Below, one piece after another: positions 19,376 through 40,814 of a stretch of 64,000 nucleotides of DNA (positions are counted from its first letter, which is position 1; each line of letters starts with the position of its first letter). The DNA is taken from the NCBI RefSeq assembly GCF_013388255.1, contig NZ_CP058215.1, positions 496,001 to 560,000 on the forward strand, written 5' to 3'. Below the pieces are notes generated by a model. That model saw nothing but the letters and a program-made list of their open reading frames with translations, did not search any database and was not told the origin of the DNA. The position numbers and the translations under genes were made by a program. The DNA comes from Methanolobus zinderi (GTDB taxonomy: Archaea; Halobacteriota; Methanosarcinia; Methanosarcinales; Methanosarcinaceae).

Positions 19376-19909
19376 TTATTTTTCCCCGAGCTTCCTGGAG
19401 AAATCAACGTAACTGCACGATTGTCCTGTGATCTCAATCAACTTCGTGCTCACAGAACCATTGTCTACAACTAGCTCTACTGCGCTTGGATCTGACATCC
19501 TGGGTTTATTCGGCGATCCGGGACAGATCAGAAGTACATCGCTTTTTTCTATAATAGGCCTGTGCAGATGTCCGAATATAAGTACATTAACTCCCATCTC
19601 CAGTGCTTTATATCTTATTGATGTGGTATCGACCACAGACAGTCCGCCCTGATGCACAACACCTATTTTAACGTCCTCGACTTCAAAGACCAGCTCCTCG
19701 GGAAGCAGCTCTTTCAGTTCCGTATGATCAGAGTTTCCGTGTACTGCCTTTAATTTCCCGGTAGATTCCAGTGCCCTGTAAAATTGCGGTGAACTAAAGT
19801 CTCCGGCATGTATTATCAGATCGTAATCCTCAATGAGTTCTGAAAGATACGGTGGTATTTCTTCCTTTTCAAGATGTGTGTCAGAAATTATGATGCATTT
19901 GACGGTGAT
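19376..19909 (-). CDS. MJ0936/YfcE-type metallophosphoesterase, no standard start codon
   Basis: The frame codes all motifs of a two-metal phosphoesterase: SDTH, HAGDF, HGNSDH, VVHQG and FGHLHRP. It has no ATG, GTG or TTG before the first motif. The only in-frame codons between the upstream TAG (19933-19931) and SDTH include ATC at 19909, which has GGGAT 5-6 nt before it, and GTC at 19903, where relatives would begin (VKCIIISDTH). The next GTG (19657) would lose the active site. It is in the same frame as the upstream regulator, separated by one TAG. Either a near-cognate start, amber readthrough, or a base error is needed. Confidence 0.8.
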   Translation of the reverse strand: MTVKCIIISDTHLEKEEIPPYLSELIEDYDLIIHAGDFSSPQFYRALESTGKLKAVHGNSDHTELKELLPEELVFEVEDVKIGVVHQGGLSVVDTTSIRYKALEMGVNVLIFGHLHRPIIEKSDVLLICPGSPNKPRMSDPSAVELVVDNGSVSTKLIEITGQSCSYVDFSRKLGEK

Positions 19910-19930
19910 TTGAAATCCCTTCTGTTTGAT

Positions 19931-20719
19931 CTATTGAATACTCAGGTCAACAAGCTCGTATTCCAGATTCTCTGCTTCGAGCCTGCTAAGGATCGTGGGG
20001 ACTTCCTCGTCTATTGCCAGCACAAGTGATGAGAGACCATGATATGCAGCTTCGATCACTGATTCCTTGGCACCGAACATAACATCCGGCTCCATGTCTA
20101 TCTTTTTCAGGGCGACTAAGGATTCCACGCCCACAATAGCAATATAGGCTTTAGATCTTGCAAGGGATCTCAGGCGTTCAAGATCAACATTCTTTGAACC
20201 GCCGCGCTCCACCCTTGGCACCCTGCATATGGTTATGCTGGCGTTCTCAAGGTCTATAAGGCCCATAAGGTCGGTAACTCCCACATCCTCTCCTTTCGTA
20301 GCATCGGATATAGTAGTGCCGGATGCGCTTGTAACCTCTTCAGTACCTACGTACAGGAGTCCTTCCCTCATCTTAAGATAGACCTTAGTGTCTTTTTCAA
20401 GGTCCTCTTCCGCTATTGCAGTCCAGGTTGATACATGACTTATGATATCACTCATTACATAGCGGGCATAACGTTTCATATCATTTGCGTTCTCAAGTAC
20501 CCATTCCACTCCCTGTTTGGTGATACGGTAGCGAACCCTTCCTTCTGAGTAGATGTGTCCCTCGGCGACGAGTTCTTTGATATACTCGGAAACCGCCTGG
20601 GGAGTGACGCCTATTTTTTCAGCTATCTCCTTTTGCCTGACGTTTGGCTGATGGGCAGCCACCTCGATCAGTATCTGGAATTTGGTTATGCCACTTTTGC
20701 TATGAAGGAGTTCTATCAT
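19931..20719 (-). CDS. Winged-helix transcriptional regulator (COG3888-like)
   Basis: 262 residues. An N-terminal winged helix (about 10-75: VRQKEIAEKIGVTPQAVSEYIKELVAEGHIY, in two parts around the recognition helix) is followed by a linker and a C-terminal alpha/beta domain (about 150-260) that looks like a small-molecule or nucleotide-binding fold. Similar two-domain regulators are common in methanogens. It starts 2 nt after the stop of the 20722 gene, so the two are one operon. The stop is TAG and the frame stays open into the phosphoesterase. Confidence 0.85.
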   Translation of the reverse strand: MIELLHSKSGITKFQILIEVAAHQPNVRQKEIAEKIGVTPQAVSEYIKELVAEGHIYSEGRVRYRITKQGVEWVLENANDMKRYARYVMSDIISHVSTWTAIAEEDLEKDTKVYLKMREGLLYVGTEEVTSASGTTISDATKGEDVGVTDLMGLIDLENASITICRVPRVERGGSKNVDLERLRSLARSKAYIAIVGVESLVALKKIDMEPDVMFGAKESVIEAAYHGLSSLVLAIDEEVPTILSRLEAENLEYELVDLSIQ

Positions 20720-34685: not shown

Positions 34686-36425
34686 ATGCATCCTTTCACC
34701 AAAAACGATGTTAAAAATAGGTTATTGAATAATGTAAGAGTCCTTATAAGCATATCAATTATGCTTTCGATATTCAACCCTGTGTTCATTGCGAGCGCAG
34801 CAGCCAGCGAGCCTGTAATTTTAGATAATTCAACAGGAGACTCCTGGATTTTGCATACGTGGGAATCAGATAGTGGTGATATTGCAGACAGTTATAATAT
34901 CAGTCATGATGGAAGCTGGATCAATGACAGTATCTCCGAGTTCAATGATACTGGTCTTCTGGCACATGAGTGGTCCAACATCACAGTTTATGCTTACAAT
35001 GCAACCACTTCTACTCTGTCAAGTGGAGTAGCAGACAATGTTCAGCTACCTAACAATCCAATTTACATCACTGATGTTGATACACCTGTTACTATCAAGG
35101 AAGGAGAAACCGTTACTGTAGATATTAACTCAACAGATTCTGACGGTGATTCTGGTACTTTCACCTGTAACAGGACCGATCTGTTTGATGATTTCAATCC
35201 AACTTCTGGTGAAGGTTCCTGGACAAGCAATTATACAGCTAATGGAACCTATTATGTTGAGTTCAGTGTTTCTGACGGGTATGGTTCCAGTGATTCTGAA
35301 GTAATGGAGATCACTGTTACAAATGTTAATGTCCCTCCTGAATTCGAAGAAATTGATAACCAAACAGTAAAGGTGGACGAGAATCTCTAATTCACTATCA
35401 GTGCAACAGATACTGATGATGATGCCGAACTTACTTATTCAAATGTGAGTGCTTTGCCAGAAAATGCAACTTTCGACGCCTCAACCCAGGTTTTTGACTG
35501 GACTCCTTCTGAAGACCAGAAAGGAACTCACTCTGTTAAATTCAATGTTACTGATGAAGAGGGAGCTAATGACTCCATGACAGTTTCAATAACTGTAACT
35601 GATTCATCAAGCGACACAAGCTCAACCTCGGGTGGTAGTTCCGGCGGTGGTGGCGGAGGTGGCTCCCAGACCACCGGTGAGGCCTATGAGAACATTGAGT
35701 TCAAGGACTACACACTCAAGCCTGTTGTGAAGGACAGGGAAACAATGTTCGAATTCAGCAGAGAGGATAACAGCATCATCTCTGTAAGTTTCACTACCAG
35801 TATCAATGGTGGACAGACAAAGACCATTATTGAAGTGCTCAAGGACACATCCACACTGGTAAAAAGTGCTCCTTCTGGAAAGGTCTACAGGAACCTCAAT
35901 ATCTGGGTAGGGGATGGCAAGCTGATTCCACGTCTGATTTCCGATGCACAGATAGTGTTCAAGGTTGAGAAGAGCTGGATCGAGTCCAGGGGTGTAGATG
36001 CCGATTCAATCAAACTGCTCAGGTATTCTGGATCTTCCTGGACGCAGCTTCCGACCTCACAGACCGGCGAGAATGACGAGTACTTCTTCTACGTAGCCGA
36101 GACTCCTGGCTTCTCTCCATTCGCTATCTCCAGTATAACTGAAGAAATTACCAGTGTAGAGGCCAGCGAGGAGAAGACAGAATCGGTTTCAGGTGGAAGT
36201 GATGTTAAAAAGTCGGTTGATGAGAAGGCAGAACCTGAAAGCAATGTTGCGACCCAGGAGGAAAAGTCTTCAACGTTCATCTGGGTAACACTGGTTCTGG
36301 CTGGTGTTGTTTTCATAGGCCTGCTTGGTTACAGGAATAAGGAATATTGTGAAGAATGCTATGAAAGAGTTCGCTCAAGAGTCAGTAATCATGACGGAAA
36401 GCGCTATCGTCGCATCAAACGCTAG
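34686..36425 (+). pseudogene. PGF-pre-PGF surface protein interrupted by in-frame TAA
   Basis: The frame codes a signal peptide (about 1-38), Ig/cadherin-like domains, a Gly/Ser linker, a PGF-pre-PGF domain (GEAYENIEFKDYTLKPVV... to FSPFAISSI) and a C-terminal membrane helix with a basic tail (RRIKR). A TAA at 35388-35390, after VDENL, breaks it; the same frame continues at once with FTISATDTDDDAELTYSN, plainly the same domain. The downstream part has only a GTG at 35445 without SD and no signal peptide. TAA is not a recoded codon in this lineage, so this is a nonsense mutation or a base error. The final stop is TAG. N-glycosylation sites (N-x-S/T) are frequent. Confidence 0.82.
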
Positions 36426-36532: not shown

Positions 36533-38608
36533 ATGTTTATTGCAGCCCGGACCAAAATAAGCTTGTTGTTGGTGGGTATGCACAAATTGTTCTCTTTCTT
36601 ACAAAGACCAGGAAACGGGGATATGGTCTGCAGTAACTATCGGAAAATAATTGTTTGGCTTATATGTATTGCTTTATTTCTGTCTGTCTCAGGATTGGCA
36701 AGTGCCGACTCTGATGATATTTCTAATATTTCTGATGAAGATAACGCTGATTCCTCTGGCGGAAAGGAAAAGGAAAAAAGTGATCCATCCACGGAAGATG
36801 ACTCCGATTCAGGCAGTAGTAGCTCTGATGATGAATCAGAAACAGGTGATTCTTCAAATTCGGAAACAGATGATAAAGACGCTGAAACCGAAACCACGAG
36901 CTCGGATGACAGTGAGGATACCGAAGATAATAACAGCAGGGATGATTCCTCTTCTGATGACTCAGAATCCAATGATACGGAAACTGATGGTTCTAACGAA
37001 AGCGAAGAAGATACTTCTGATGATAGTGAGACATCCGATAATGGTGTAACAAATGACAGTGAAAACGATAGTGAAACCGATGATTCTTCTGCCGATGACA
37101 CGGAATCTGGTGAAGAAAGCGCAGATGATAGTGGGAATGCTAATTCTTCTGATGACCCGGAAGCAGATAATGTAAGTGACAATGATAGTGAAAGTGGAGA
37201 GAGCAGTGAGAGTGCAAGTTTCTCTGAAGATGACAATTCCTCTGACGTGAATACAGAAGATAATAAGGAGGACGACTCCTCTTCAGAAGATGATTCAAAT
37301 GATGACGAATCTGATGATGAAAAAGATAATTCCGGTAAAGACAATTCCAAAAAGGATAAAGTAAAACCTGATAATACAAAGAAAGATAAGTCTTCCAGGG
37401 ATGAGAATGAGTCAGAGAATACAGATAATGATAATTCTTCTGGAGACGATAACGAAGCAGAGGACATAGATAGCGACAGTAGTTCTGAAGAAAACAACGA
37501 ATCAGAGGATAGCGAAGGCGAAAACTCTTCTGAAGAAAGCAGCGGATCAGACAATCCGGAAAATGACAGCAATGATTCCGATTCAGGCACTGACAACTCC
37601 AATGAAACAGATAATGAGGAAGAAGATCAGGCCAGCGACAGTGAATCTTCCGATAATTCCTCTCCAGATGACGATGAACCGAATGAGGGTGATAACCAGT
37701 CAGATTCTGAAACTGAAACCAATGACCTTACAGATGATAGTGTTGAAGAGAGCACTGAAGAATCAGCAGATTCTGCCGAAAATACGAATTCTGAAGACTC
37801 AGGTGATTCCGATGATTCCGAGCCTTCTTCTTCTTCCAGTTCAGGAGCTATGAGGGAAGGTACAAATACCCAGTCACAGGAAGCATACGAAAATATCGAA
37901 TTTACAGATCTTTCCTTTGCATCAATCGTAAGCGGAAAAGAAGTGACCTTTCAGTTCAATAAAGGCAGGACCGGTATCACATCGATCAGTTTCATCCCGC
38001 AATTGAGCGGTGGACAGGTAAAGACCATTGTCGAATCACTAAAGGACACTTCCGGTTTTGCAGCAGGGAATGCCCCCGGTCTGGTCTATGAGAACTCCAA
38101 CGTCTGGATCGGGAGCGGGTAGTATTCCCCTTACAAGCTTACTGAAGGAAAGGTCAATTTCAAAGTTGAAAAACAATGGCTGGAATCCAACGACGTAGAC
38201 CATGATGCGATACTGCTGTACAACTATCACGATAAATGGATTCCCCTGGATACGGAAAAAGTGGATGAGGACGAGGAATTTGTGTATTATACCTCTGAAA
38301 CTCTTGGTTTTTCAATATTTGCCATCTCAAGCATGGATGAGAGTACATCCGTAAGCCTTCCTGCCGCCAGGATAAACAACTCCTCTGAAGGCAATACAAG
38401 TCTTCTGAAAAATGATCCATCAGGTCAGGATGGGGCTGGAACTTTTGGCGACTCCGTAGCATCGTATGCTTTAACGCTGTTGGGCCTTGTTTTATTCTTA
38501 TTGTGGGCCGTTGGTTTTGTGCTTATAAAGCAGAATATAAGTTTTGATGAGATCGGGCCCCAGTTGAGAAGCCAGGGTGGAGAGGTAATCAGGCGTCTTA
38601 GAAGATAA
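36533..38608 (+). CDS. Acidic Ser/Asp-rich PGF-pre-PGF surface protein with in-frame TAG
   Basis: Signal peptide (hydrophobic core IIVWLICIALFLSVSG), then about 370 residues of almost only S, D, E, N, T and some K, then a PGF-pre-PGF domain (QEAYENIEFTDLSF...), a membrane helix and a basic tail (IRRLRR). A TAG at 38120-38122 lies inside the PGF-pre-PGF domain; the frame continues without a gap as YSPYKLTEGKVNFKVEKQW to the TAA at 38606. Gapless alignment to the paralogue at 34686 puts the TAG opposite a Lys (GDGKLIP versus GSG-TAG-YSP). It may be read as pyrrolysine, be truncated, or be a base error. ATG 36578 or 36623 are alternative starts. Confidence 0.8.
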
Positions 38609-38717: not shown

Positions 38718-40814
38718 ATGCTTGAGAGAATGTTTGATCCGGATGCTGTAGCAGTGATAGGTGCCTCCAGGAAAGAGGGAAAAGTCGGAAGGGCGGTACT
38801 TGAGAACCTGATATCAGGTGGTTTCGAGAATATCGTTCCGATAAACCCGAATGATGGTGAGATACTGGGCTTCCAGGCTTATAAAAGCATTCTTGACGTT
38901 CCGGAAGAGATGAACGTCGACCTTGCAGTAATAGTGATCCCGGCAAAATTCGTACCTGAGGCAATAGACCAGTGCGGACGCGCAGGTATATCGAATATTG
39001 TGGTCATATCCGCAGGTTTCAAGGAAGCTGGTGTGGAAGGTGCACGCCTGGAGCGCGAATGCCTCGAGCTATGTGAAAAATACGATATCAGGATGGTGGG
39101 GCCCAATTGTCTTGGTATTATTGACACAGATTCAGGACTTGATGCCACCTTTGCTGCAAATAAGGCACACAAAGGCAATATCGCAATGATGTCACAATCC
39201 GGTGCGATATGTACCGTGGCCCTTGACTGGGCTGACAGGACAAATGTGGGCTTTTCCAAGTTCGTAAGTCTGGGGAATAAGGCAGACCTGGATGAGAATG
39301 ATTTCCTGGAATTCTTTGAAACCGATGATTCCACTGCTGTAATTTCCGCTTATCTGGAAGGTGTGAAGAGCGGTCCTGATTTTATAGAAATAGCAAGACG
39401 TGTGAGCAGATCAAAGCCTGTGGTGATTGTTAAGTCAGGAAGAACTTCTGTGGGTTCAAGGGCTGTATCTTCACATACAGGAACACTTGCCGGATCTGAT
39501 GCTGCCTATAATGCGGCTTTCCGGCAGAGTGGAGTGATAAGGGCAGACTCCCTGATAGAGATGCTTGATCTTTCAAGGGCTTTCTCGGCATATCCTCTTC
39601 CTGAAGGCAGGAATATCGCAATCGTAACAAATGCCGGAGGTCTTGGGATACTCACAGCGGATGCATGTTCCAGTGCGGGACTGAATATTGCATCTTTCGA
39701 AGAAGATACTATTAATGAATTAAGGGAGACACTTCCCCCGGCTGCTAACATATATGATCCTGTGGATGTGCTCGGTGACGCCAGCGCGGACGTATATGCA
39801 CATGCTCTGGAAACGGTACTTGCTGACGGGAACGTGGACGGTATAATCCTTCTAGTTTCTCCCCAGGCAATGACCGACATTACTGAGATCGCAGAAAAGG
39901 TAGTGGATACCATAAAGGGCTCAGAGAAACCCATTCTGTGCAACCTTGCAGGAGGTACCCGTGTTGCAGAGGGTGAGGTGATACTGCAAAAGAACGGTAT
40001 CCCCAATTATCCTTCCCTTGAGCGGGCTGTTGCCAGTATGGATGCGCTCTGTACATACTATTCGATAAAGAAGAGAAAATACGTATCTCCACCTTCAATT
40101 AATGCGGACGGAGATACTGCCGGTAAGATCATCAGGGATGCAGTCTCAAACAAGAAACGCATTCTTGGTCTCGAATCCATGGACATATTGTCCTCCTACG
40201 GGGTCAATGTTGTTGACTCCAGGATAGTAAAATCACTTCCTGAAGCAGTAGAGGCATCAGAGGAGATCGGCTATCCGGTTGTGATGAAGATAGTCTCTCC
40301 TGACATATCCCATAAGACCGATGTGGGAGGTATACGCCTGAATCTGCAGCATGCGGATGATATCGAACGTGCCTATAATTCAATGATGTCGGACGTTCAC
40401 CGCTATATGCCGGAGGCGAGGATATCCGGTGTACAGCTGCAGAAGATGGTCTCAGGCGGAAAGGAGGTCATCATCGGTATGAACCGTGATCCACAATTTG
40501 GTCCCCTGCTCATGTTCGGACTCGGAGGCACCTATGTGGAATTCCTCAAGGATGTTTCCTTTGCTGTGGCACCCATAAGTAAAGAGGAGGCAAAGCACAT
40601 GGTCTCGTCCATAAAAAGCTATCCTCTGATCGCAGGTGTCAGAGGGGAGGCACCTTCGGATATAAATTCTATCATAGATACGCTTATGAGGATCTCACAA
40701 CTTGTAACAGATTTTCCCGAGATACTGGAATTTGAGATCAATCCTCTCATGGTAATGCAGGACGGGCAGGGTTGTGTCGCAATGGATGTGCGGTTCACCA
40801 TAGACGTAAAATAA
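38718..40814 (+). CDS. acd: ADP-forming acetyl/acyl-CoA synthetase (alpha-beta fusion)
   Basis: 698 residues. The alpha part has a CoA-binding Rossmann domain (AVAVIGASRKEGKVG) and the phospho-histidine site His253 in SSHTGTLAGS; the beta part is an ATP-grasp domain (SPDISHKTDVGGIRLNL). It converts acyl-CoA, ADP and phosphate to acid, CoA and ATP, conserving energy from acetyl-CoA or amino-acid-derived acyl-CoA. The fused form is common in archaea. It is followed on the same strand by a BioD/DRTGG protein, and Acs lies opposite. Confidence 0.93.
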   Translation: MLERMFDPDAVAVIGASRKEGKVGRAVLENLISGGFENIVPINPNDGEILGFQAYKSILDVPEEMNVDLAVIVIPAKFVPEAIDQCGRAGISNIVVISAGFKEAGVEGARLERECLELCEKYDIRMVGPNCLGIIDTDSGLDATFAANKAHKGNIAMMSQSGAICTVALDWADRTNVGFSKFVSLGNKADLDENDFLEFFETDDSTAVISAYLEGVKSGPDFIEIARRVSRSKPVVIVKSGRTSVGSRAVSSHTGTLAGSDAAYNAAFRQSGVIRADSLIEMLDLSRAFSAYPLPEGRNIAIVTNAGGLGILTADACSSAGLNIASFEEDTINELRETLPPAANIYDPVDVLGDASADVYAHALETVLADGNVDGIILLVSPQAMTDITEIAEKVVDTIKGSEKPILCNLAGGTRVAEGEVILQKNGIPNYPSLERAVASMDALCTYYSIKKRKYVSPPSINADGDTAGKIIRDAVSNKKRILGLESMDILSSYGVNVVDSRIVKSLPEAVEASEEIGYPVVMKIVSPDISHKTDVGGIRLNLQHADDIERAYNSMMSDVHRYMPEARISGVQLQKMVSGGKEVIIGMNRDPQFGPLLMFGLGGTYVEFLKDVSFAVAPISKEEAKHMVSSIKSYPLIAGVRGEAPSDINSIIDTLMRISQLVTDFPEILEFEINPLMVMQDGQGCVAMDVRFTIDVK

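Follow-up and report, generated by a model that had tools for sequence, protein, structure and literature searches.

The window, i.e., the whole stretch of 64,000 nucleotides of Methanolobus zinderi DNA analysed here, belongs to a genome assembled as a single contig of 2,704,953 bases (99.96% complete) and carries the gene of a PGF-pre-PGF surface protein whose reading frame is interrupted by one amber codon (Table 1). The frame comprises 691 codons from the ATG at 36533 to the TAA at 38606-38608, and its read-through product of 691 residues displays an N-terminal hydrophobic signal-like stretch, then approximately 380 Asp/Ser/Glu-rich residues and, towards the C-terminus, the PGF-pre-PGF domain, a linker, a single membrane helix and a basic tail, with the signal-like stretch and the helix being judged by eye. 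The preliminary description had placed the TAG inside the PGF-pre-PGF domain with 161 further codons in frame behind it, and both points hold up: the TIGR04213 (PGF_pre_PGF) model covers residues 450-599 and thus brackets codon 530 (E = 6e-45), and the frame stays open to its TAA with codon usage that still scores as coding 3′ of the TAG (0.16 over 30 codons and 0.12 over 160 codons). The match scores 153 bits with the TAG read through and 156 bits with the stop, against a curated cut-off of 28, and a Pfam search of the same product returned no match. No further lesions were found in the remainder of the frame, and the genome has 12 TIGR04213 domains, of which the other 11 contain no stop. Going by the layout of the frame, termination at the TAG would strip the product of its membrane anchor.

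Table 1. Features at the amber-interrupted surface-protein locus of M. zinderi (window coordinates)
Feature	Coordinates	Strand	Basis or remark
PGF-pre-PGF paralogue, interrupted by TAA; own terminal stop is TAG	34686..36425	+	ORFs and TIGR04213 match
In-frame TAA within Ig-like domain of the paralogue; M. halotolerans has CAG (Gln) at the aligned position	35388..35390	+	
PGF-pre-PGF surface-protein gene, Asp/Ser-rich, secreted, with membrane helix and basic tail	36533..38608	+	one TAG interruption
PGF-pre-PGF domain (TIGR04213), spans the TAG	37880..38329	+	profile match
Codon 530, an in-frame TAG (amber); the sister species M. halotolerans has CAG (Gln) here	38120..38122	+	
161 codons 3′ of the TAG: remainder of the domain, linker, membrane helix, basic tail; coding-like, conserved	38123..38605	+	
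ADP-forming acyl-CoA synthetase gene; follows the orthologue directly and serves as anchor for synteny	38718..40814	+	family match

The TAG could be taken as an ordinary gene end, with a second gene starting after it, and same-frame neighbours split by a TAG do exist: on the minus strand of the window (19379-20719), a regulator (DUF7839, winged helix) ends in a TAG at 19931-19933 and a same-frame phosphoesterase follows, such that reading this TAG as anything but a true stop would fuse two families. At 38120, however, a single TIGR04213 model spans the TAG, the ORF behind it does not begin until 38261, already within the domain, and the intact orthologue of M. halotolerans is one 539-aa frame; on the last ground, we rejected the two-gene reading, whose probability we regard as negligible.

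How TAG is used elsewhere in the genome was gauged by a scan of 864 kb (32% of the genome) for in-frame interruptions that have coding-like codon usage to either side and lack a nearby ATG. These startless interruptions number 12 (4 TAG, 4 TAA and 4 TGA), several of which are gene ends or doubtful ORFs, and no excess of TAG over TAA or TGA interruptions is seen in the 864 kb; a stricter scan did not pick up the 36533-38608 gene. The four TAGs fall in this gene, at the gene end before the next gene at window position 19931, at a site (L029) some distance 3′ of the end of a methyltransferase domain, and in a short doubtful ORF (L098). With three of these four searched by family and the fourth being the short ORF, the codon at 38120 is, among the cases so covered outside the methylamine methyltransferases, the only TAG that a domain spans. 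An ORF of unknown family at L096:3022-3543 has an in-frame TGA with coding-like usage on both sides and is a possible pseudogene. Certain archaea reportedly read all their TAG codons as pyrrolysine. In M. zinderi, the sequence argues against such full reassignment because 58 of the 603 ORFs that reach 150 aa within the 864 kb end in TAG and because TAG separates two families at 19931.

The preliminary description had proposed a search for the pyl genes, and the set is complete: pylS, pylB, pylC and pylD are all present, each above its curated NCBIfam equivalog cut-off (e.g., PylS matches NF007083 with 749 bits against a cut-off of 550), and ARAGORN detects a tRNA-Pyl with the anticodon CUA on the minus strand at C1:182840-182911 (L036:1501-1572). 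The organism thus has the combination of pylSBCD and tRNA-Pyl(CUA) by which a pyrrolysine decoder is recognized. The tRNA gene shows 93% identity to what we take to be the M. barkeri gene; it lies about 17 kb from pylSBCD on the opposite strand, not directly 5′ of pylS. The methylamine methyltransferase genes, two for dimethylamine (MtbB) and one each for trimethylamine (MttB) and monomethylamine (MtmB), have their TAG inside the Pfam domain, and in the two stretches scanned with Rfam as a positive control, a match to the PYLIS family begins at the TAG in all four. Given this full pyrrolysine kit, readthrough of the TAG at 38120-38122 is possible, and some insertion of pyrrolysine there is plausible.

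A dedicated recoding element at the TAG at 38120 was looked for and rejected: Rfam gave no match, to PYLIS or any other family, up to E = 1 between 36400 and 38800, and the predicted folding of the 103 nt that begin with the TAG does not surpass that of shuffled versions (z 1.22). In the same comparison, the methyltransferase TAGs of the genome gave z values of -4.06 (mtbB), -0.35 (mtmB) and -1.19 (mttB); since mtmB and mttB, unlike mtbB, score near their shuffles, folding energy alone is a weak discriminator that decides little, and Rfam is the clearer test. PYLIS itself is reportedly helpful and not essential, according to excerpts of PMC2933860.

To place the site in its family, we searched 27 genomes of the Methanolobus group (M. 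zinderi and 26 relatives) with the domain and tail as the query. The best match outside the own genome, at 59% identity and without a stop, is from G003, which we take to be M. halotolerans SY-01, and there the orthologue (L070:9075-10694) is intact and syntenic. It lies directly 5′ of the acyl-CoA synthetase gene, as do the orthologues of four further genomes (G002, G019, G006 and G012), and a fragment at a contig end in G009 is also beside that gene. In the acidic region, a long repeat of the ERDDD type in the M. halotolerans protein corresponds to an Asp/Ser stretch of lower regularity in M. zinderi, and this part of the protein evolves fast. Among the best-scoring matches listed of the 333 to TIGR04213 in the 27 genomes, none has a stop inside the domain, the domain of the 36533-38608 gene scoring lower than these. 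Some longer matches in the domain-and-tail search contain stops, mostly TAA.

A tree of 30 domains, built from a subset of the matches (the loci returned by the search, one best per genome and three further), groups the M. zinderi gene with six orthologues (ultrafast bootstrap 100, SH-aLRT 99 for this clade), and within the clade the M. halotolerans gene is its sister (98/96). The codons of the six orthologues at the site are CAG (three), CAA (two) and GAG (one), i.e., Gln in five and Glu in one; TAG occurs in none of them and at the aligned column in none of the 29 other domains. The column is variable, with 17 Lys, 5 Gln, 3 Asn, 2 Gly, 1 Glu, 1 Thr and the one stop, and as it adjoins single-residue gaps, the position probably lies in a loop. 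The preliminary description had aligned the TAG with the Lys of GDGKLIP in the upstream paralogue (L069), had noted that pyrrolysine is a lysine derivative, and had pointed to the orthologues as the place to look for Lys or TAG. The alignment is correct, but a lysine-like role of the residue is not borne out: neither Lys nor TAG is present among the orthologues (5/6 Gln, 1/6 Glu), Lys is a trait of the paralogue group, and the tree together with the site codons led us to reject lysine equivalence for the orthologue clade. A pyrrolysine selected for its chemistry in place of Lys would accord with Lys being the commonest residue of the column (17/30) and with the pyl genes, yet the orthologues have Gln or Glu, the column also takes Asn, Gly and Thr, and the TAG has no counterpart in the other 29 domains; the conservation of TAG among orthologues expected of such a protein is not seen, and we view this reading as extremely unlikely. 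What is found instead is the pattern known for Thg1, i.e., a private TAG at a variable position, where the sister species has a sense codon that differs by a single step.

We also asked how the part behind the stop has evolved. Relative to M. halotolerans, pN is 0.213 for the domain before the TAG, 0.172 for the rest of the domain and 0.317 for the tail, and dS is saturated or nearly so, which leaves dN/dS uninformative. Lineage-specific changes counted with five outgroups range from 7 to 8 in M. zinderi versus 5 in the sister before the TAG and from 3 to 8 versus 4 to 6 in the tail; for the domain after the TAG, they are 11 versus 5 with three of the five outgroups and 8 versus 5 and 10 versus 4 with the others. 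Relaxed evolution 3′ of the TAG is not evident, no clear excess of substitutions emerging with the five outgroups tried. This lack of clear decay suggests either that the mutation is young or that the full protein is still partly made; the half of the domain downstream of the TAG being as conserved as the upstream half, this and the unclear excess would equally agree with continued production of the complete protein, and to that extent they speak against the nonsense-mutation reading set out below.

The adjacent paralogue upstream has a lesion of its own: its TAA is residue 235 and lies within a Pfam Big_9 match (residues 217-303) that spans the stop. Pyrrolysine is not expected to be inserted at TAA. 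Two adjacent surface-protein genes thus each have one nonsense codon where M. halotolerans has Gln, and these paired stops point to a local loss of constraint, to loss having been selected during culture or, with lower probability, to two errors. Under the last option, the true codon at 38120 would be a sense codon, probably for Gln, and likewise in the neighbour, and a pair of stops less than 2.7 kb apart in adjacent genes, both at Gln positions of the sister species, is what such errors could produce. Against this, the assembly is one 2.7 Mb contig of 99.96% completeness, it is not error-rich judging from only 12 startless interruptions in 864 kb, and the 36533-38608 frame is intact apart from the TAG; a sequencing or assembly error is, accordingly, improbable in our estimate.

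A chance nonsense mutation explains the private TAG, the absence of a PYLIS match, the Gln/Glu orthologues and the TAA of the neighbour. We are fairly confident that the codon is a lineage-private amber mutation that is mostly terminating, perhaps leakily read as pyrrolysine, and tolerated. In this proposal, one C>T transition would have turned a CAG Gln codon into TAG in a variable stretch of the protein, and this in a cell whose methylamine methyltransferases have UAG decoded as pyrrolysine. Translation would for the most part probably stop at the TAG to yield a 529-residue secreted protein without a membrane anchor, and where Pyl-tRNA is available, a minority of ribosomes would probably insert pyrrolysine and complete the anchored protein, the residue acting as a tolerated substitute and not a catalytic one. 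The change would be nearly neutral and perhaps recent, the species being represented by one genome. An introduced amber codon in a reporter of M. acetivorans gave 20-30% readthrough according to excerpts of PMC2933860, and some full-length, pyrrolysine-bearing product is therefore plausible during growth on methylamines. One could go further and posit a selected UAG switch of anchoring, with cells rich in Pyl-tRNA (methylamine growth) displaying the pyrrolysine-bearing anchored form and others shedding a soluble form. The complete pyl system, the position of the TAG ahead of the C-terminal membrane helix and the conservation of the part downstream would suit such a switch, which we nevertheless consider very unlikely, as the TAG is kept in none of the six orthologues, no PYLIS match is present at the site and the TAA of the neighbour removes that protein's own anchor likewise.

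We see in this amber codon a natural test case of how pyrrolysine-decoding archaea buffer amber mutations, in which the TAA lesion of the adjacent gene of the same family, which tRNA-Pyl should not suppress, constitutes a built-in control. It also counsels caution: a TAG that falls opposite a paralogue's Lys does not count as evidence of pyrrolysine, and it is the orthologues that decide. At the level of listings, a literature search brought up no report of pyrrolysine in a protein of the PGF-pre-PGF type.

Among known systems, the MtmB, MtbB and MttB genes of the same genome resemble the 36533-38608 gene in having an in-frame TAG within a read-through frame; unlike it, they have this TAG within a Pfam methyltransferase domain of full length, and PYLIS matches at that codon. 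Their TAGs are presumably at the conserved site of each family, and the one at 38120 has no such site. A closer parallel is the gene for the tRNA-His guanylyltransferase Thg1 of Methanosarcina acetivorans, whose amber codon is said, in work of Heinemann from 2009, to have been gained by neutral evolution. Pyrrolysine was physically seen in that protein, according to excerpts of PMC2933860, and the M. zinderi case differs in being known from sequence alone. In both, a pyrrolysine-decoding methanogen has a lone in-frame TAG in a gene other than a methyltransferase gene, private to the species and unconserved in homologues; unlike Thg1, the M. zinderi product is a surface protein that loses its anchor upon truncation, and its neighbour bears an undecodable TAA. 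In excerpts of PMC3639795, UAG candidates of Thermincola potens and others, which are from other organisms and other genes, are likewise described as arising by single mutation and tolerated because pyrrolysine is not obstructive. The amber codon at 38120 is probably a further instance of the kind known from Thg1.
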